DNA from: Desulfobacula sp.
GTDB taxonomy: Bacteria; Desulfobacterota; Desulfobacteria; Desulfobacterales; Desulfobacteraceae
Length of the DNA: 62,275 bases
Reading direction: 5' to 3'
NCBI GenBank assembly: GCA_018645325.1
Contig: JABGOU010000021.1
Span: forward strand, 1-62,275
The notes under the pieces were generated by a model. That model was not told the origin of the DNA, did no database searches, and saw only the letters and a list, made by a program, of their open reading frames with translations. The position numbers and the translations under genes are program-made. Positions 1 through 53,424 of this stretch are shown here, piece by piece. Positions within the stretch are counted from its first letter, which is position 1; each line of letters begins with the position of its first letter.

Positions 1-631
1 TCAAGGGCTACTCGACTCTGTTCTTTTGATATTTGATAATTGGAAATGATATCACCTCAATATATGATTGATTATATATTAACCTTGTCATAGTTTCGGC
101 ACCTTGCTTTCAGATCTAACAAACCAGAACAAGTGCGTCAATAGGTAAAAACCCCTATTTTTGAAGACAAGAATATATGAAAAATGACAGTTGTTTTGCA
201 AAAAAAATACAATTCTCATATACGGGAAAACGCCACTATCAAAAGAATAAGCCTGAAATTATTTTTAAAATTTCATAAAAAACACAGTGCAGAAAATATA
301 GTGCAAAAAAATAATTATACTATATAGGAAAGGGAGCAATCTAATCTTTCAAAATGGCGTTCAAGTTAATTGGAGATAGAGGAGATTTTGGTCCGACTTC
401 GGAAATTATTTTCCCTAAATCTGAGAAAGTGGGATGTATATATTATTAACTGGGATATGAAAGAACGGCTCTTGACAATGGTTTTGGTTCATATGGTGGA
501 ATGCCGGAGGACAAAATATTATTTTTACCAAACACAAGATATTGAGTCAGGTTTTAATTAAAAAATCAAACTGATGCTCCTGCTATTCTGCAATTTCTGT
601 AAGCCTTGAAAAGCGAGATATGTAATAATTA
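1..631. other. 631-bp region with no confident gene
   Basis: AT-rich stretch downstream of the leftward haem-sensor gene. On the minus strand a frame is open from about position 50 to the window edge, but it has no ATG, GTG or TTG start after its upstream stop. On the plus strand, ATG at 354 opens a frame of about 31 codons that stops at a TAA near 447; the same frame then stays open for about 30 more codons. This could be a broken small gene, but I do not recognise it. No terminator, tRNA or IS end is evident. Confidence 0.4.
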
Positions 632-1642
632 TTATTTTTGGCTCTCCTCTTTTTTCATTTCTATATACCAGTCTTCTTTGCTATAAAGTTCATCTGAACA
701 TTCAGGACACATACCATGACTAAATTGCGCATCTGAGTGTTTTTGGATATAACCTTCTAACTGGTTCCAATATCCTTTATCATCTCGGATTTTCTTGCAT
801 TTGGCACATATGGGGAGCAGTCCGCCGAGCTGTTTAACTTCTCTCAAAGCTTGCTGGAGTTCTTTGATATAACGGTCACGTTCCTGTTCTGCATTTTCTC
901 TTTCCCTGATTCTATCCCGAATATAACCCATTCCTGCCCATAGTGTTCCAAACCCTATGATCCAAAGGACTCCCATACCTTGTGCAATTTGGATAATATG
1001 ACGTTGTGCTGATGCCTGGTAAGGCTCCATGGGTACTGCCAAACTTATCCCACCTCGAATATCACCGACCTTATACCCTTGATGATCGTGACATTTAAGA
1101 CAACCCTCTTCCACAAGAAATGGCCGAATCACTCGAAAGTATGGTTTGCCCTTAATTATCTCAATAGATGTACCCTCAATTTTTCCGTTTTCAAAAGATT
1201 TCAGAGCCTTGGTTTCCCAAGGGTCGGGAGCATTTCCGGGATTAAGAGGTTTCAAACTTGTGATATGCCCTTGAAGTCCGTATTGTTTCCTGCCCAACTC
1301 GTGAACCTGCCGGGTCATATAAGCTGGATTAACAAGGGTCAACTGTTTCCCTGAAGGGGTTGAGATATCACGTTCTTGAACATTCAGGTAGGGATTGGGT
1401 GGTGTATATTCCGAAATTGGTACATAAACGCCCCCATGCATAGTTGCCCATCGACGATAGACGGTATCCTTATTATAACTGGCAATCGCTTCCAGGCGAG
1501 CCAGGGAAGAAAACTCTTTTTTGGTGCTCATAAAATTAAATAGAAATAATGCTCCGACAATCACAGTCCACAATGCAACCATGCCCCAGGTATAGTGACT
1601 GATCCGATATGACTCTCGTATAGCAGGCTTTGATTTGTTCAT
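632..1642 (-). CDS. Membrane haem-binding sensor protein, DUF3365/Tll0287-like, with Cys-rich C-terminal module
   Basis: About 336 residues from the ATG at 1642, which has a GAGG ribosome site and avoids overlap with the upstream kinase; an in-frame start at 1708 would overlap it. A membrane segment at about residues 17-38 is followed by an extracytoplasmic Tll0287-like (DUF3365) domain with one c-type haem site, CLKCH at 181-185. A second membrane segment lies at about 219-240. A short coiled coil then leads to the LPICAKCKKIRDDKGYW motif (from about 276) and a CPEC pair (312-315), a module common at the C-terminus of deltaproteobacterial signalling proteins. The family is thought to sense redox state or small ligands through the haem. 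The gene lies 22 bp after the hybrid kinase, so the two are probably co-transcribed and may act together; that link is inference. There is no catalytic output domain of its own. Confidence 0.8.
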   Translation of the reverse strand: MNKSKPAIRESYRISHYTWGMVALWTVIVGALFLFNFMSTKKEFSSLARLEAIASYNKDTVYRRWATMHGGVYVPISEYTPPNPYLNVQERDISTPSGKQLTLVNPAYMTRQVHELGRKQYGLQGHITSLKPLNPGNAPDPWETKALKSFENGKIEGTSIEIIKGKPYFRVIRPFLVEEGCLKCHDHQGYKVGDIRGGISLAVPMEPYQASAQRHIIQIAQGMGVLWIIGFGTLWAGMGYIRDRIRERENAEQERDRYIKELQQALREVKQLGGLLPICAKCKKIRDDKGYWNQLEGYIQKHSDAQFSHGMCPECSDELYSKEDWYIEMKKEESQK

Positions 1643-45802: not shown

Positions 45803-47218
45803 ATGTTACAAAAATTAAATGACTTACAGGGCTTAAAATCTTTCAGGCTGGTCAAATTTTTCACATTCACCTCCCTTGTGATAATGTTCACTGCGACCAT
45901 TACTATCTCAGCTTTAAATGCCCACTGGGTAAGAAATATTCTTCTGGAAAAAAGTAAGGAATATGATTCACTCCTTGTTGAAAATCTCAACCATCAGATC
46001 ATTTCCAGATTTATGCTCCCTGTATTATTACGATACAAAGAGATCAGGCTGCGAGAAGAAAATCAATTCCTTCTGATGGACAAAGTTGTTCGATCAACCC
46101 TGCATAGTTTTAATGTTGAAATGGTTACCCTTTATGATAATAACAATATCATTTCCTATAGCTTTGATCCTGATAGAATAGGACAGGAAAACGCCGGTGG
46201 TGTCCATTACGATAAAGCAATGAAAAAAGAAACAAGTTCCAGACTCATTCAACAGGGCAGTTTTTTGGAGCTGTTTTTCTCCTTTCCCCAGGAAACAAAA
46301 ATTATTACTTTTGCACCCTTAAGGGCTGAAAAACAGACACCATCTGACCTGGCCGACCGGGTTCTAGGGGTTGTTGAAATTGTCCGGGATGTTTCAAATG
46401 ATTATAAAAAAGTATTTAAGCTTCAAGGGCTCATTGTTGGCTCCTGCTTCATTATTATGGGAGGACTTTTCATAGTACTTCGTTTTGTTGTTAAGCATGG
46501 AGAAAAAATTATAGAGCGAAGGGCTGAAGAAAGGCTTAAGCTTGAAGAAAAACTTCGCCAGGCGGAACACTTGTCAGCTATTGGTGAAATGACTGCAGGA
46601 GTATCGCATGAAATCAGAAATCCCCTGGGGATTATAAAAAGCAGTGCCCAATTATTAAAGAAGCAAATGGAAAAATTAGGAACCACAAGCAGTATCCCCG
46701 ATATTATTGTAGAAGAATCTGCCAGGCTGGATAATATTATTACGGACTTTCTGGATTTTGCCAAGCCTAAAATACCGGATCTTCATCCCTGCCGGATTGA
46801 AGAAATCATAGAAAAAAACATTGTCTATCTTTCTCCAAGGATAGAAGATTATAATTTGAATATCATCAAAGAAATATCAAAAAATTTGCCTGAAATAATG
46901 GCTGACAGTGCCATGCTTCACCAAGCATTCTTAAATATTTTTATTAATGCATTCCAATCATTAAAGCGCAATGGCTGTCTTACCATAAGAATCAAATATG
47001 ATTCCGGCAATATTGTTATCAATTTTCTTGATAACGGGGATGGGATTCCTGAAGAGATCTTAAAAAAAATATGGACTCCCTTTTTTACGACAAAAGATAC
47101 TGGAACCGGCCTGGGCCTTGGAATTGTAAAAAATATGATCGAAGCCCACAAAGGAATAATCAGCATCACTAATACTAATCCAAAGGGTGCGAATGTGGAA
47201 ATTAGGCTTCCGGTTTAG
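45803..47218 (+). CDS. Membrane sensor histidine kinase (ZraS/AtoS-like) next to pilMNOPQ
   Basis: 471 residues. Two membrane helices (about 18-40 and 208-230) enclose an extracytoplasmic sensor domain of about 165 residues ([20 protein letters not shown]). There is no clear HAMP or PAS; a coiled coil links directly to HisKA with [19 protein letters not shown]. The HATPase domain has N box [10 protein letters not shown]1 [10 protein letters not shown] and G2 GTGLGLGIV. The gene for its likely partner, a sigma-54 response regulator, begins 12 bp downstream. It is divergent from pilM but does not have the six-helix layout of PilS, so a role in pilus control is a guess from position. Confidence 0.92.
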
Positions 47219-47230
47219 GAGAATAATAGC

Positions 47231-48601
47231 ATGGAAAATATTCTGATTGTTGATGATGAAAAAAACTACCCCACAATAATTGGAGAAATTCTTCAGGAAG
47301 AGGGTTATACATCCTTAACAGCTTCAAGCGGAATGGAAGCTCTGGACATTTTAAACAATGATCTCATAGACCTGGTTTTAACCGATGTTAAAATGCCGGG
47401 GATGAGCGGCATTCAATTACTTGAAAAAATCAAAGAAATCAACCCGGATATCCCTGTAATAATAATGACAGCATACGGCAGTGTGGAAAAAGCTGTGGAC
47501 GCCATGCACAAGGGTGCATACACATTTATCCTCAAACCATTTGAGAACCAGGCATTAATTGCGCATATTGCCAAAGCAATCTCAGTCTATAGGATTGTTC
47601 AGGAAAACAATATCCTCAGGGATGCTATCCAATCAAGGTACAAGTTTGATAATATTATCGGAAAAAGCAAACCCATGCAGGAGATTTATGAACTTATTAA
47701 AAAGGTTGCACCTTCAAATGCCAGTGTTCTTATTGAAGGGGAGAGCGGTACTGGAAAAGAACTGGTCGCAAAATCAATCCATTATAACAGCTTGAGAAGA
47801 AACAAGCCTTTAATTGCAGTAAACTGCTCGGCATTTGCTGAAACACTTTTAGAAAGTGAATTGTTTGGTCATGAAAAAGGTGCTTTCACAGGGGCATCCG
47901 CCTTAAAAAAAGGCCGGTTTGAAATGTCTGACAAAGGCAGTTTATTTCTTGATGAGGTGGGTGAACTGCCCATTTCTCTACAGGTAAAATTACTCAGAGT
48001 CATTCAGGAGAGAACAATTGAACGGGTTGGTGGCACAATATCTATCCCCGTTGATTTCCGTCTTATTGCCGCCACCAATAAAAATCTTGAAAACGAAGTA
48101 AAAGAAGGCCGCTTCAGAGAAGATCTTTACTATAGACTCAATGTTGTAAAGGCGGTTATACCTCCCCTTAGAGATCGATCAGAAGACATACCTTTGTTAA
48201 TCAGACATTTTATTGATAAATATACCAAAGGAAATCTCTCAAGCGGGAATGTATCAGAGATCCATCCCGAAGCTGTCAAAATTTTATGCGACTATCAATG
48301 GAAAGGCAATGTAAGAGAGCTTGAAAATATCATAGAACGTTGCGTTATCCTCTGTAACAGTGACATAATTACCCCATCCGACTTTCCTTTACAGGTCAGA
48401 CAAAACATGTCTATCACAATTGAACTGGAAGGGATTCCTGAGAGTGCAGGCCTTTCGGAAACTCTGGCAGCCGTTGAAAAAAGAATGATACAAAGGGCTA
48501 TGAAACTTTCAGGAGATGTACAGACAAAAGCTGCCCAATTACTTGGAATCGGAAAAAGCGGTTTAAATCAAAAGTTAAAAAAATTTAATCTGGACAAGTA
48601 A
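47231..48601 (+). CDS. Sigma-54-dependent NtrC-family response regulator
   Basis: 456 residues. The receiver (about 1-120) has phospho-Asp in [13 protein letters not shown] and Lys in FILKP. The AAA+ domain has Walker A GESGTGKE (about 170), an intact GAFTGA loop ([14 protein letters not shown]), Walker [12 protein letters not shown] and the arginine region [14 protein letters not shown] Fis-type helix-turn-helix ([20 protein letters not shown]) ends the protein. It should activate sigma-54 promoters by binding upstream sites. A strong sigma-54 promoter with dyads upstream lies directly downstream of this gene, a likely target. It has an AGGAG ribosome site and follows the kinase gene by 12 bp. 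Confidence 0.95.
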
Positions 48602-48702
48602 ATTTTAAGAATGCCAGGCAGTTCAAAATCTTAAACTATTTTAAAATTCATGATTTTCAGTTGTGTTTTCAAATAGTTAAAATAAAATTTATAAAAAAAA
48701 TA

Positions 48703-48727
48703 TTGAAATATGTTCAAAATATTGAAC
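48703..48727 (+). promoter_or_regulatory. Overlapping TTGAA/TTCAA dyads, candidate enhancer (UAS) sites
   Basis: TTGAA-N5-TTCAA at 48703-48717 overlaps GTTCAA-N4-TTGAAC at 48712-48727. The sites lie 130-155 bp before the -24 element, the usual distance for NtrC-family activators. The response regulator encoded immediately upstream is the obvious candidate to bind them. Predicted, not shown. Confidence 0.45.
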
Positions 48728-48856: not shown

Positions 48857-48872
48857 TGGCAGGAAAATTGCA
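48857..48872 (+). promoter_or_regulatory. Sigma-54 (-24/-12) promoter
   Basis: TGGCAGGAAAATTGCA matches the sigma-54 consensus TGGCACGNNNNTTGCW at every specified base except the sixth, with the exact GG-to-GC spacing. Initiation is expected near 48883. No coding sequence lies downstream on this strand before the terminator, so the product would be a short RNA. Confidence 0.7.
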
Positions 48873-48882
48873 ATATTAATTT

Positions 48883-48962
48883 AATACTAATAAAATATTA
48901 GTTTTTTCATCTTTTTTTCCTTCTCTTAAAAAGGCTGCTGTATATACAGCGGCCTTTTTAAG
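48883..48962 (+). ncRNA. Candidate sigma-54-dependent small RNA, about 80 nt
   Basis: Predicted transcript from the -24/-12 promoter to the terminator. It would have a 5' hairpin (ACTAATA/TATTAGT with an AAA loop, 48886-48902), a single-stranded U/C-rich linker (48903-48924, with TTTTCCTTCTCT) complementary to purine-rich ribosome sites, and a 17-bp terminator stem. That layout is typical of trans-acting regulatory RNAs. The alternative is that the terminator only ends the two convergent genes and the promoter match is fortuitous. No expression evidence is available. Confidence 0.5.
48925..48962. terminator. Strong, apparently bidirectional rho-independent terminator
   Basis: Arms CTTAAAAAGGC-T-GCTGT and ACAGC-G-GCCTTTTTAAG pair over 17 bp (one T-G wobble on the plus-strand RNA) around an ATAT loop, with T5 runs on either strand. 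It would end the predicted small RNA and response-regulator transcripts rightward and the YfgM-like transcript leftward. Confidence 0.85.
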
Positions 48963-49045
48963 TTTATCTCTTTGGGAAACCGTAATTTTTTTGATTATAG
49001 CATCATTCTCAATAAAAATTTAAAATTTTCATTACAAAACAAAGA

Positions 49046-49735
49046 TCACTTTATTTCATCCATCTTGCTCTCTGCGATTGGCCTGTACATTGAAGTTTCA
49101 TATTCAGTAACAATTTTTTCGTACATTTTTTTGCTTTCACCCATATTGTCATTAGCTTCATACAGCATAGCCAAAGCAAATTTTGCTTCATCCTTTAATA
49201 GATTTGTTTTGCCTTTCTCAATTTGAAGAAAATATTTCTCAGCCTCTTTAAATTCTTTTCTGGCAAGGCATACATGCCCTAAAGAAGCCAGAAGAAAATT
49301 TTCCATCTGGGCCTCATTTTTCAAAATTTCAAAAGATTCTTTATAATACTGATAGCTTTGATCAAATTTTGAAGCATCATAACATATTTTGGCAAATTTA
49401 ACCTTTGCAAGATTACCGGCTATGGTATTGGCATACTCTGAAAAAATATTTTGAAAAGCTTCTTTGGTTTCCAGATAACCTTTTTCAGGATCATTGATTG
49501 TCACATATTGTGTTAACGCATGTCTTACAAGCAGGGCAGCAGTATTCTCAGCTTTTTTAAAGCTGTACATAACCCCTGAAAATACAACCACTACCAAAAT
49601 GATAGCACCTGCAATCAAAATCAATTGTTTTTTATACTCTTTTGTATAAGCCACTATCTTTAAAAGACTTTCTTGAAAAGGATCTATTTGTTCCAGTTCC
49701 TTTTTCCTTTCATTTGACACTCTTTGTTCTGCCAT
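49046..49735 (-). CDS. YfgM-like membrane-anchored TPR protein
   Basis: 229 residues. One membrane helix (about 36-58, QLILIAGAIILVVVVFSGVM) near the N-terminus, then a predicted periplasmic TPR domain: AKVKFAKICYDASKFDQSYQ, LASLGHVCLARKEFKEAEKY and FALAMLYEANDNMGESKKMY. The size and layout resemble YfgM/TPR_21 proteins that work near the SecYEG translocon and periplasmic chaperones. The gene is the last of a leftward group with the SH3 protein and feoB, and is followed by the strong terminator 83 bp away. Confidence 0.78.
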   Translation of the reverse strand: MAEQRVSNERKKELEQIDPFQESLLKIVAYTKEYKKQLILIAGAIILVVVVFSGVMYSFKKAENTAALLVRHALTQYVTINDPEKGYLETKEAFQNIFSEYANTIAGNLAKVKFAKICYDASKFDQSYQYYKESFEILKNEAQMENFLLASLGHVCLARKEFKEAEKYFLQIEKGKTNLLKDEAKFALAMLYEANDNMGESKKMYEKIVTEYETSMYRPIAESKMDEIK

Positions 49736-50258: not shown

Positions 50259-52439
50259 TTAACCAAAACCTAAAACCATTCCTGACTGGTATACCAAAAA
50301 AGACATGACCCATGCAACCATAGTTGTATATATCAAGTTAAAACCTGCCCACTTTGCAGAAGTTTCCTTGTAAATAATTAGAATAGTTGCAAAACAAGGG
50401 ACATATAATAAAACAAAAATCATCATTGAGAGTGCTGAAAGAGCTGTCATACCGGATTGTTTAAGCGCTTTTTCCAGTGCAGCACCCTCGTCATTGCCAA
50501 CACCATATAGCACACCCATCGTACTGACAACAACCTCTTTGGCAACAAAACCTGTGACAAGTGCTACACTTTCCTGCCATCCTATTCCTATCGGCTCAAA
50601 TAATACCTCTAAGGCTTTCCCAATCTTACCGATATATGATTTCGATACCCTTTCCTGCTCTTTTTGATTTTCAATATTCTTTAGTTTTAAATTTAATTGA
50701 TAGTTTAATGCCTCTGTCGTCTCCCGGCCATCAGTTGCTGCAATCCTCTGGGAATAATCAGATTTTACCCCATTGATTTTTTCATCATAATCAACAGAGT
50801 ATAAAATTGTTTTTGGAAAACTTGAAAGTGCCCAGATAATTATTGAACCGATAAAAATAACCCCGCTCATTTTTCTTAAAAACATCTTGCTTCTATCCCA
50901 CATGTGGATCAAAAGGCTTTTTAACATAGGCATTCTATAGGGCGGCAATTCCATAATAAAAGGAGCATCTTCTCCTTTAAACAAAACAGCCCTTAAAAAC
51001 CTGCCGGATAAAATTGCGATGACAATACCTGTGAAATACAGGGTAAAAATAATGGTGCCTGCTTTTTCGGCAAAAAAACTGCCGGCCAGTACAATATAAA
51101 CAGGAAGCCTTGCTGAACAAGACATGAACGGTGTCATCAGAATGGTTAAAATCCTATCTTTATCGCTCTCTAAAGTCCTTGCTGCCATAATCGCAGGCAC
51201 ACTGCAGCCAAATCCCATTAGCATTGGAATAAAGGATTTTCCATGAAGCCCTGATGTGTGCATCACCCGATCCATAATAAAAGCAGCTCTCGCCATATAC
51301 CCGGTATCCTCAAAAAGTGCAATACAGAAAAACAAGATGAGAATATTGGGAAGAAAAATTATCACACTGCCTATGCCGGCGATTATACCATTTAACAAAA
51401 GATCTTTTACCATAGATTGTGGCATGACTTTATCAAGATAGTTAGACAGCAATCCAACTCCTGCATCTAACCACTCCATGGGATATGCACCAAGGGAAAA
51501 CGTCAATTGAAACATGGCCCATATAAAAAAAATAAACACTGGAATTCCAAAAAATCTATCAGTCAGTACAAGATCAATATTTCGTGAGATATCGATCCTT
51601 TTACGGGCAAGATTGGTTATTGTCTCTTTAACAATCCCTGCTATAACCCCATACCGGTCGTCGGTCAGCACAATCTCAAAATCATCCTCAAATAAATCAT
51701 GAATTCTTTTCCGGCACGCCTCTGCTACCTTAAAAATATTGATTGAGGTATCAGGTAAAATATTTTTGAATTTGTCTTTAACTATCTTATCATCTTCAAG
51801 AATTTTAATTGCATTCCATCTAAGCAGACCATCTATACCCTCTCCCTCTGCGTTTTGACTAATTTGGTCTTCCACCTTTAAAATACACGTCTCAATCTCC
51901 TGGCTGTATCGAATATCTCTGCTTTTTTTACCTTCATTAAACCGCAAAATTTCTTTAATTGCTTCCTCAACAAGAGTATCAATTCCTTTATTCTTATTTC
52001 CGATTGTAAAGACAACAGGCAATCCCAGCAATAGTGATAATTTTTTCTCATTAATTTTAATCCCATTTGCTTCTGCGACATCAGACATATTCAACACAAA
52101 TAAAGCAGGTCGACCGAGCTCCATGATCTGAATGGCGAGGAAAAGGCTTCTCTCAAGATTAGAGGCATCAATAATATTAATAACTATATCTGGTTTTTCA
52201 TTTAAAATAAAATCTCTTGCTGTGATTTCTTCGATTGAAAATGGAGTAAGACTATAAGTACCTGGAAGATCAATAACCCTCAAATCATATTTTTTATGCT
52301 GTAACTTTCCTTCTTTTTTCTCCACAGTTACGCCCGGCCAGTTACCCACTTTCTGTCTTGCGCCTGTGAGATTGTTAAATATAGTTGTCTTGCCGCAATT
52401 GGGATTTCCTGCAAGGGCAATAGTCAATTTTTTGTTCAT
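50259..52439 (-). CDS. feoB: Ferrous iron transport protein B
   Basis: 726 residues. The N-terminal G domain has G1 GNPNCGKTTIFNNLTG, the G2 region GNWPGVTVEKKEG, G3 DLPGTYSL and G4 NMSD. A helical GDI-like domain follows, then a polytopic membrane region from about residue 285 with two Gate motifs, including GYMARAAFIMDRVM and GFGCSVPAIMAART. It imports Fe(II) across the inner membrane. It starts 1 bp after the stop of the Fur-FeoA-FeoA fusion gene, so the FeoA partner is supplied by that fusion rather than a free small protein. Confidence 0.96.
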   Translation of the reverse strand: MNKKLTIALAGNPNCGKTTIFNNLTGARQKVGNWPGVTVEKKEGKLQHKKYDLRVIDLPGTYSLTPFSIEEITARDFILNEKPDIVINIIDASNLERSLFLAIQIMELGRPALFVLNMSDVAEANGIKINEKKLSLLLGLPVVFTIGNKNKGIDTLVEEAIKEILRFNEGKKSRDIRYSQEIETCILKVEDQISQNAEGEGIDGLLRWNAIKILEDDKIVKDKFKNILPDTSINIFKVAEACRKRIHDLFEDDFEIVLTDDRYGVIAGIVKETITNLARKRIDISRNIDLVLTDRFFGIPVFIFFIWAMFQLTFSLGAYPMEWLDAGVGLLSNYLDKVMPQSMVKDLLLNGIIAGIGSVIIFLPNILILFFCIALFEDTGYMARAAFIMDRVMHTSGLHGKSFIPMLMGFGCSVPAIMAARTLESDKDRILTILMTPFMSCSARLPVYIVLAGSFFAEKAGTIIFTLYFTGIVIAILSGRFLRAVLFKGEDAPFIMELPPYRMPMLKSLLIHMWDRSKMFLRKMSGVIFIGSIIIWALSSFPKTILYSVDYDEKINGVKSDYSQRIAATDGRETTEALNYQLNLKLKNIENQKEQERVSKSYIGKIGKALEVLFEPIGIGWQESVALVTGFVAKEVVVSTMGVLYGVGNDEGAALEKALKQSGMTALSALSMMIFVLLYVPCFATILIIYKETSAKWAGFNLIYTTMVAWVMSFLVYQSGMVLGFG

Positions 52440-52440
52440 A

Positions 52441-53424
52441 TTATTTTTTTATAAATCTAACCTTTTCAACAAAAATATTTGCAGCTTCTTCAACCCGAAG
52501 CGATATATGGTATCCTTTAATAACAAGTTCAATTGGATCTTTCAGCGGTGCGTATTTTTCTACATATATGACCGAGCCTCTGTTGATTCCCATTTCAAGC
52601 AATCTGCGCCTTAAAGCGCTTTCTCCTGCTACCTTTCGAATAATTCCCTCCTGTCCGGTTTTCATCTGGCTGAGTAATAGAGGGGATTCTATAATATCCT
52701 TTGATTCTTTGTTTTTATCCTGGTTTGAAGTTTTTATCTTTGATAGGACTTGAACCTTTATTTTTTCTGTCATTCCCTTCCCTAAAACCAAACGGTTTTC
52801 CCGGGTTGCGATTACCATCTGGCCTCCAAAACCAGCAGAAACAATTTCAACCGAATCTCCAATTTTGAGCCCCATTGAAGAAACTCGCAATTGCATATTT
52901 TTTCCGGCTTCAAAACCTTTTACAATCAGTTTTTCACCTTGCCTTGCCTTGTGAAGCGATACAATGGTGTTACGTTCTTCCATACACTTGGAGCAAATAC
53001 CATATATTTCCATTTTATGCTGAAGCATGAGGAACCCATAAACATCTGCCACCTTGAGCTGTTGCCTTTCTATCTCCTCATCTTTAAACTCAAGTATGCT
53101 ATCGCATTTTGTACAGACCATATGGTCATGATGTAATCCAAGATGTCTGTGCTCATATTGAGTTTCTTTGTCATCGAATTCTATTTTGCTAGCAAATCCG
53201 AATCTGCACAGAAGCTCCATACTGCTTAATACAAGGCCTTGGTCAAGCTTAATCTTATCTTGCCCAAGCTGCACCAGGATATCTTTTATGGTTACATGGT
53301 GCTCAAGTTTTAAAAAAGCTTCTAAAACCTGAAACCGTGAACTAAACTTGTCAATACCCTGTTGTTGGAACAATCTTTTAAATTGTTTTTTTTCTTGCTC
53401 ATGCTTATTGATCATTGTTTCCAT
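52441..53424 (-). CDS. Fur-family regulator fused to two FeoA domains
   Basis: 327 residues. The N-terminal 150 residues are Fur-like: a winged-helix region, then HHDHMVCTKCDSILEF with a second CSKC, the usual zinc sites. The recognition-helix segment reads LDQGLVLSSMELLCRFG where Fur normally has a TVYRTL motif, so DNA specificity may differ. FeoA domain 1 spans about 157-228 (GKNMQLRVSSMGLKIGDSVE) and FeoA domain 2 about 247-325 (LRRRLLEMGINRGSVIYVEK; KDPIELVIKGYHISLR). FeoA is an SH3-like partner of FeoB. The feoB gene follows 1 bp later. The fusion suggests one protein both senses metal and contacts the transporter. Confidence 0.92.
   Translation of the reverse strand: METMINKHEQEKKQFKRLFQQQGIDKFSSRFQVLEAFLKLEHHVTIKDILVQLGQDKIKLDQGLVLSSMELLCRFGFASKIEFDDKETQYEHRHLGLHHDHMVCTKCDSILEFKDEEIERQQLKVADVYGFLMLQHKMEIYGICSKCMEERNTIVSLHKARQGEKLIVKGFEAGKNMQLRVSSMGLKIGDSVEIVSAGFGGQMVIATRENRLVLGKGMTEKIKVQVLSKIKTSNQDKNKESKDIIESPLLLSQMKTGQEGIIRKVAGESALRRRLLEMGINRGSVIYVEKYAPLKDPIELVIKGYHISLRVEEAANIFVEKVRFIKK

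Follow-up and report, generated by a model that had tools for sequence, protein, structure and literature searches.

A putative sigma-54-driven small RNA of the Desulfobacterales with an antisense match to porin start sites

Downstream of the gene of an NtrC-type response regulator in Desulfobacula sp., an earlier note had proposed a small RNA under the control of sigma-54 and of the two-component pair encoded next to it. Is there such an RNA, which regulator would switch it on, and what would it act upon? In the following, the window is the whole stretch of DNA that was analysed (62,275 nucleotides). The features that matter here are, in its coordinates:

45803-47218, plus strand: sensor histidine kinase gene, 471 aa (HisKA, HATPase_c), syntenic in other genera
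47231-48601, plus strand: NtrC-type response regulator gene, 456 aa (Response_reg, Sigma54_activat, HTH_8), predicted activator
48621-48636, no strand assigned: distal upstream palindrome GTTCAAAATCTTAAAC, predicted activator site
48712-48727, no strand assigned: proximal upstream palindrome GTTCAAAATATTGAAC, predicted activator site
48857-48872, plus strand: sigma-54 -24/-12 promoter TGGCAGGAAAATTGCA, start expected near 48883
48883-48966, plus strand: predicted small RNA of about 80-85 nt
48886-48902, plus strand: 5' hairpin of 7 pairs, lacking in some copies
48903-48924, plus strand: unpaired U/C linker UUUUUUCAUCUUUUUUUCCUU, 22 nt, antisense to the Shine-Dalgarno sequence, AUG and MKK codons of porin mRNAs
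48925-48962, plus strand: intrinsic terminator, 17 pairs with a 4-nt loop
49046-49735, minus strand: convergent gene of a TPR-type membrane protein behind the terminator (TPR_21 below cut-off)

The elements on which the earlier note was built are all there. The -24/-12 element, described as having one mismatch and exact spacing, matches 11/12 fixed bases of TGGCACGNNNNTTGCW and keeps the GG-GC spacing; the 17-bp-stem terminator ending an RNA of about 80 nt was found at its place; and the activator gene upstream has the expected domains, with GAFTGA visible in its translation. The note had also seen no open reading frame behind the promoter and, indeed, no ATG, GTG or TTG occurs anywhere in the window transcript. 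This bears on the possibility that the transcript encodes a short peptide, in a MLVFSSFFPFLKKAA-like frame. An ATG frame of at least 8 codons does occur in 17/78 promoter-bearing transcripts, but 57/78 have no closed frame of that length from ATG, GTG or TTG, and the frames seen run through hairpin, linker and terminator. With the window copy devoid of any of these start codons, a peptide gene is extremely improbable.

To follow the locus through related genomes, we used a covariance model of the RNA (R1, 17 sequences) built without the promoter, so that the GG..GC signature is not imposed by the search. It precedes 61 of the 63 RNA copies examined, with at least 11/12 promoter bases in 56/63; these copies (62 sources) were picked from the R1 matches and include the R1 training sequences. 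The signature is missing from L098, which has GT in place of GC, and from L100, whose contig stops inside the element. In random 110-nt windows of the same loci, promoter matches of at least 11/12 were met in only 5/10,560 cases, which makes a chance promoter unlikely. A further set of 20 RNA matches has GG..GC in 19, and the exception, L221, looks like a false match. By the earlier note's own criterion, its proposal would have fallen if relatives lacked the promoter or the linker; both are conserved. They also contradict another explanation, a bidirectional terminator between convergent genes accompanied by a promoter-like sequence arisen by chance. While the terminator of copy 1 does separate convergent genes, the surroundings of a second copy differ, with no converging gene in about half of the loci of that copy, so that this explanation has next to no probability left.

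The predicted RNA folds with an energy of -28.4 kcal/mol (z = -8.8 versus shuffles). Across the 17 sequences of the genus, 95.0% of the cells of hairpin and terminator are paired, and four pairs are changed on both sides, a number equalled in 4/500 shuffles. Two pairs of the 5' hairpin covary in this set; RNAalifold predicted the terminator and not the 5' hairpin. Altogether, we consider it almost certain, from conservation and folding, that the RNA is real and sigma-54-driven.

The RNA belongs to a family. In the source genome, a DNA search revealed a second copy on contig C107, 79% identical to the first and with a perfect promoter, TGGCACGCCAATTGCT. R1 matches 25/26 genomes of the genus and 83/86 genomes of the taxonomic family at E<=0.01, including 42/42 of those of good quality; at least two matches were found in 52/86 of the family genomes, a few third matches being weak. 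At the level of the order, R1 matches 76/389 genomes at E<=0.001, of which four lie beyond the family. A broader model including the promoter (R2, 39 sequences, four from outside the family) matches 233/379 genomes and 98/149 genera of the order at the same threshold. An exact core pattern, searched in a collection with one genome per species (84,980 species), matched 54 contigs, which belong to Desulfobacula, Desulfobacter, Desulfotignum, Desulfospira, Desulfobacteraceae or Desulfobacterales bacteria, or unresolved Proteobacteria or Deltaproteobacteria; the core is present in the cultured species Desulfobacter latus, Desulfobacter vibrioformis and Desulfospira joergensenii. The model matches read individually comprise the 63 copies, the 20 further matches and 23 matches from outside the family. 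Outside the family, most linkers read UUCAUCUGUUUUCCUCC, UUCAUCUUUUUCCUCC or similar and are complementary to a Shine-Dalgarno sequence and AUG; a few differ more. No Rfam 15 family matched at its gathering score in the window and eight further loci (six with RNA copies), and all matches of a permissive search lay far below gathering scores. No such RNA was found described in the open-access literature on small RNAs of Desulfobacteraceae, Desulfobacterium autotrophicum and Desulfobacterales, nor in the accessible parts of PMC11109978, PMC3162934 and PMC11887813. Regulation by small RNAs seems to have received little attention in these sulfate reducers.

The copies occupy two main settings. In the first, that of the window, the TPR gene lies downstream (32/63 copies), and the gene order is kept in several genera. 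In the second, genes named by eye as ahcY (20 of 63) or metK (17 loci) lie upstream. The remaining copies have other surroundings or are cut by contig ends. Copy 1 is absent between the regulator and TPR genes in G025 (L305), a one-contig genome that retains copy 2, whose palindromes lie 133 and 221 nt ahead of the -24 element, and likewise in G012 (L014) and G017 (L023), the latter with an apparent half terminator remaining. These appear to be losses of copy 1, or assembly faults in the drafts, the other copies being kept. Outside the family, tandem copies about 290-440 bases apart were seen at L377 (G287:C18) and L385 (G198:C1). In copy 2 of genus g4 (L094, L105, L224), five U instead of seven separate CAUC from CC, so that the target spacing of copy 2 may have been altered. 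Downstream of the second copy in the source genome (L002/L082, about 530-790, minus strand), a gene resembling those of SelW/Rdx-type selenoproteins, with an in-frame TGA, was recognised by eye. As to the convergent TPR-type protein (49046-49735), it has a hydrophobic stretch, its gene adjoins the RNA in several families, and it could be part of the same envelope theme.

Which regulator would act on the promoter? Relatives of the neighbouring regulator with at least 79% identity are present in the other genomes of the genus, except G015 (68% complete), whose best match is much weaker. Upstream of both copies lies a common palindrome, GTTCAAAATNTTGAAC, typically about 125-146 and 200-240 nt from the -24 element. 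In the 59 copies whose available upstream sequence reaches 240 nt or more, it is found within one mismatch in 49/59, within two in 56/59 and within three in 59/59; the control gave 8/4249 windows within one and likewise within two mismatches, the three-mismatch figure standing without a control. A relaxed form, GTTYAAAATNTTRAAC, occurs exactly in the source draft genome only at 48621 and 48712, that is, only upstream of the window RNA, which designates the neighbouring regulator as the likely activator. Weaker matches mean little, since at one mismatch the genome holds 15 (at nine places) compared with 28 for the reversed control, i.e. no enrichment. The fetched stretches around six other palindrome places of the source genome contain no sigma-54 site of 10/12. 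Copy 2 of this genome is preceded by degenerate palindromes only (3 and 4 mismatches). Outside the family, in a sample of 20 stretches taken from the better R2 matches and therefore not random, 18/23 RNA matches have the palindrome within three mismatches in 350 nt (16 within two) and five are without it; regulator homologues of at least 58% identity were found in 13/24 outside-family stretches, four of which came from a separate set and some of which are cut by contig ends.

Position and co-conservation therefore suggest binding of the regulator to the palindromes, and it is very probable that the neighbouring regulator drives the RNA. The central proposal of the earlier note, a sigma-54-dependent RNA most likely under the adjacent pair, is thus supported by the conserved promoter, linker, terminator and palindromes. 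A pilus role, at which its mention of the nearby pilMNOPQ hints, found no support, and we set pilus control aside: within one mismatch and on both strands, the window has the relaxed palindrome only at the two places upstream of the RNA, and the predicted targets are porins and some substrate-binding proteins. pilM adjoins the kinase gene in 5/17 stretches from relatives, not all of which are long enough to extend to pilM. Regarding the kinase itself, its AlphaFold model has a mean pLDDT of 67.4, and the best 50 structure matches consist for the most part of kinase cores or of longer sensors, with ZraS and WalK near the top; that its periplasmic part may be PAS- or Cache-like is only a reading of the strand order.

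What the RNA could act upon is suggested by its linker, whose complement, GGAAAAAAAGAUGAAAAAA, spells a Shine-Dalgarno sequence, AUG and Lys-Lys. Outside the RNA genes, the best match of the RNA region in the source genome is the start site of a porin (C147), with a predicted duplex of 27 pairs and -31.1 kcal/mol with either copy, the pairing reaching into the hairpin; the next match is a TRAP substrate-binding protein (C30). Low-complexity anti-Shine-Dalgarno sequences can match many ribosome-binding sites. A loose complement, with as many as 3 mismatches allowed, occurs 210 times in the source genome versus 106 for the reversed control, and among 28 such places that were fetched few are start sites of clear genes, so that only near-perfect complements carry weight. 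We then scanned 84 genomes of the family with the pattern AAGGAGAAAARGATGAARAA, demanding full pairing with G-U allowed. There are at least 39 full matches. Of the 39 listed, 37 mark the beginning of an outer-membrane protein and 2 that of a substrate-binding protein, and all of these proteins have signal-like N-termini as judged by eye. These outer-membrane proteins form at least two groups without detectable mutual similarity: WNFYG porins, of which one (L267) exceeds the cut-off of Porin_4, and a looser assemblage whose matches to DESULF_POR1 or Porin_2 stay below cut-off. Where a target matched no curated family, it was classed by eye and by mutual similarity.

The base preceding the AUG offered an internal control. 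When it was left free, rows with the G that pairs with the C of the RNA comprised 50 outer-membrane proteins and 2 others, compared with 6 and 22 for any other base (Fisher p = 3e-12); these are the rows listed and classified, with RNA genes excluded, and they leave aside one G row and 8 non-G rows, besides 2 further non-G rows that are not genes. As porin start sites are related by descent, the rows cannot be treated as independent; with a single count for each genome and class, the numbers become 43 and 2 versus 5 and 15 (p = 8e-9). Moreover, the median duplex energy, computed with one typed consensus linker, is -25.5 kcal/mol for 32 porin genes (selected by protein similarity) versus -9.0 kcal/mol for 787 background genes.

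These figures have to be weighed against the idea that the RNA, while real and sigma-54-driven, is a general translation damper: a mimic directed against Shine-Dalgarno sequence and start codon that strikes any strong MKK start, porins being prominent merely through their strong sites. The low complexity of the linker fits such a role, as do the matches to the starts of TRAP and ABC substrate-binding proteins. However, outer-membrane proteins make up 37/39 of the full matches listed, the -1 base splits them from other MKK starts, and the 11 background genes starting with MKK reach a median duplex of only -11.5 kcal/mol with the same consensus linker. We regard the damper as unlikely, and pairing of the RNA with porin leaders as quite probable on this comparative evidence.

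In one lineage, G021, both sides of the duplex are changed: the C is replaced by U in both copies of the RNA, and the G by A in the porin. Compared with the duplexes formed by three usual linkers, the cognate ones gain 3.7-6.6 kcal/mol in strength. Of the six outer-membrane rows without the -1 G, four come from genomes in which the linker core is the usual CAUC (one each from G042 and G062, two from G055), so that this co-change could be a coincidence, and a single case is suggestive only; the sixth such row, from G026, goes with a divergent RNA. A separate observation concerns AAGGAAAAAAAGATGAAAAA, which is found in some outer-membrane protein genes (L290, L291, L329, L330) and is the reverse complement of the core of the RNA. 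The identity may be a hint that the RNA descends from a porin start site that was copied in inverted orientation.

With respect to its partners, the RNA would differ from well-known regulators of the same kind. Hfq (Pfam) was above cut-off in 0/84 genomes of the family, with no match in the source genome (90% complete) and two sub-threshold matches in two genomes of the genus; in the control, 5/14 genomes were positive. The Qrr RNAs of Vibrio, under LuxO, are sigma-54-driven, multicopy and pair with mRNAs, and they use Hfq. In enterobacteria, MicA, RybB, OmrA/B and MicF block translation initiation of outer-membrane protein mRNAs under Sigma-E, OmpR or other control and in an Hfq-dependent manner; the job predicted for the Desulfobacula RNA is the same, but control and Hfq dependence differ. 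Like Qrr, GlmY (with GlrR) is a sigma-54-driven regulatory RNA (PMC3162934); the window RNA, for its part, has no Rfam match at gathering score. Closer in its independence from Hfq is ChvR of Caulobacter crescentus, described as driven by a two-component system and as repressing an outer-membrane receptor by pairing (PMC6237742). By the same description, ChvR has one target and two pairing sites, and its abstract does not name sigma-54.

In its layout, the locus recalls the CbrA/CbrB system of Pseudomonadaceae, described as directly activating both CrcZ and CrcY (PMC8871633): an NtrC-type pair whose regulator gene is followed by a sigma-54 RNA gene, with a further RNA encoded at another place. 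This likeness is what would favour an RNA that, as CrcZ does, titrates a protein and pairs with no mRNA. The Crc RNAs bind Crc/Hfq, whereas the Desulfobacula RNA has a long start-codon antisense in genomes with no Hfq detected; no repeated motif was seen by eye, and the conserved unpaired part is a single mRNA-complementary stretch. Titration is accordingly very unlikely; the sequence relation to CrcZ and CrcY was compared through Rfam only. Among sulfate reducers, the regulators DVU0653 and DVU0679 of Desulfovibrio vulgaris, which belongs to another order than the host of the window, are reported to target ncRNAs downstream of their own genes (PMC3333781, PMC4641369), and the RNA of DVU0679 is given there as of unknown function. 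Judged from these descriptions, they are likewise sigma-54-type regulators with an ncRNA target downstream, so that the arrangement has a precedent in sulfate reducers.

Starting from the gene family, its two loci, promoter, terminator, palindromes and antisense match, all brought out by sequence analysis, we infer transcription, regulator binding, a signal and a repressive direction as follows. The neighbouring kinase would sense a signal, probably periplasmic, and phosphorylate the NtrC-type regulator, which would bind the palindromes in front of the RNA genes and so activate the sigma-54 RNA polymerase. The single-stranded linker UUUUUUCAUCUUUUUUUCCUU would then pair over about 20-29 nt with the Shine-Dalgarno sequence, start codon and first codons of porin mRNAs, and with a few mRNAs of substrate-binding proteins. 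Such pairing would block ribosome entry and lower porin translation without a detectable Hfq. As a whole, this account of a trans-acting base-pairing RNA that represses porin translation independently of Hfq is, in our opinion, probable. We lean only slightly towards a broader reading, in which the undescribed, order-wide family would be a dedicated signalling line of Desulfobacterales: one kinase-regulator pair, with palindrome and sigma-54 promoter together in the source genome only at the two RNA genes, would silence the major porins without Hfq through a start-codon antisense of 20-29 bp, which is kept with the porin leaders and co-changed in one lineage.

The earlier note had seen neither the second copy nor the palindrome common to both, and neither how widely the RNA occurs in the order nor its complementarity to porin starts. 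These findings place a regulator, a promoter, two RNA copies, a pairing stretch and named targets in one putative circuit, in a lineage without detected Hfq. If true, the enterobacterial logic leading from a two-component system to a small RNA and on to a porin has a sigma-54 version elsewhere, and the circuit could serve as a model for pairing without the Hfq chaperone. Finally, the window holds one further gene of note, at 52441-53424 on the minus strand and adjoining feoB (50259-52439): it encodes a single protein with a Fur domain and two FeoA stretches, a predicted fusion of an iron-uptake regulator and a transporter accessory.
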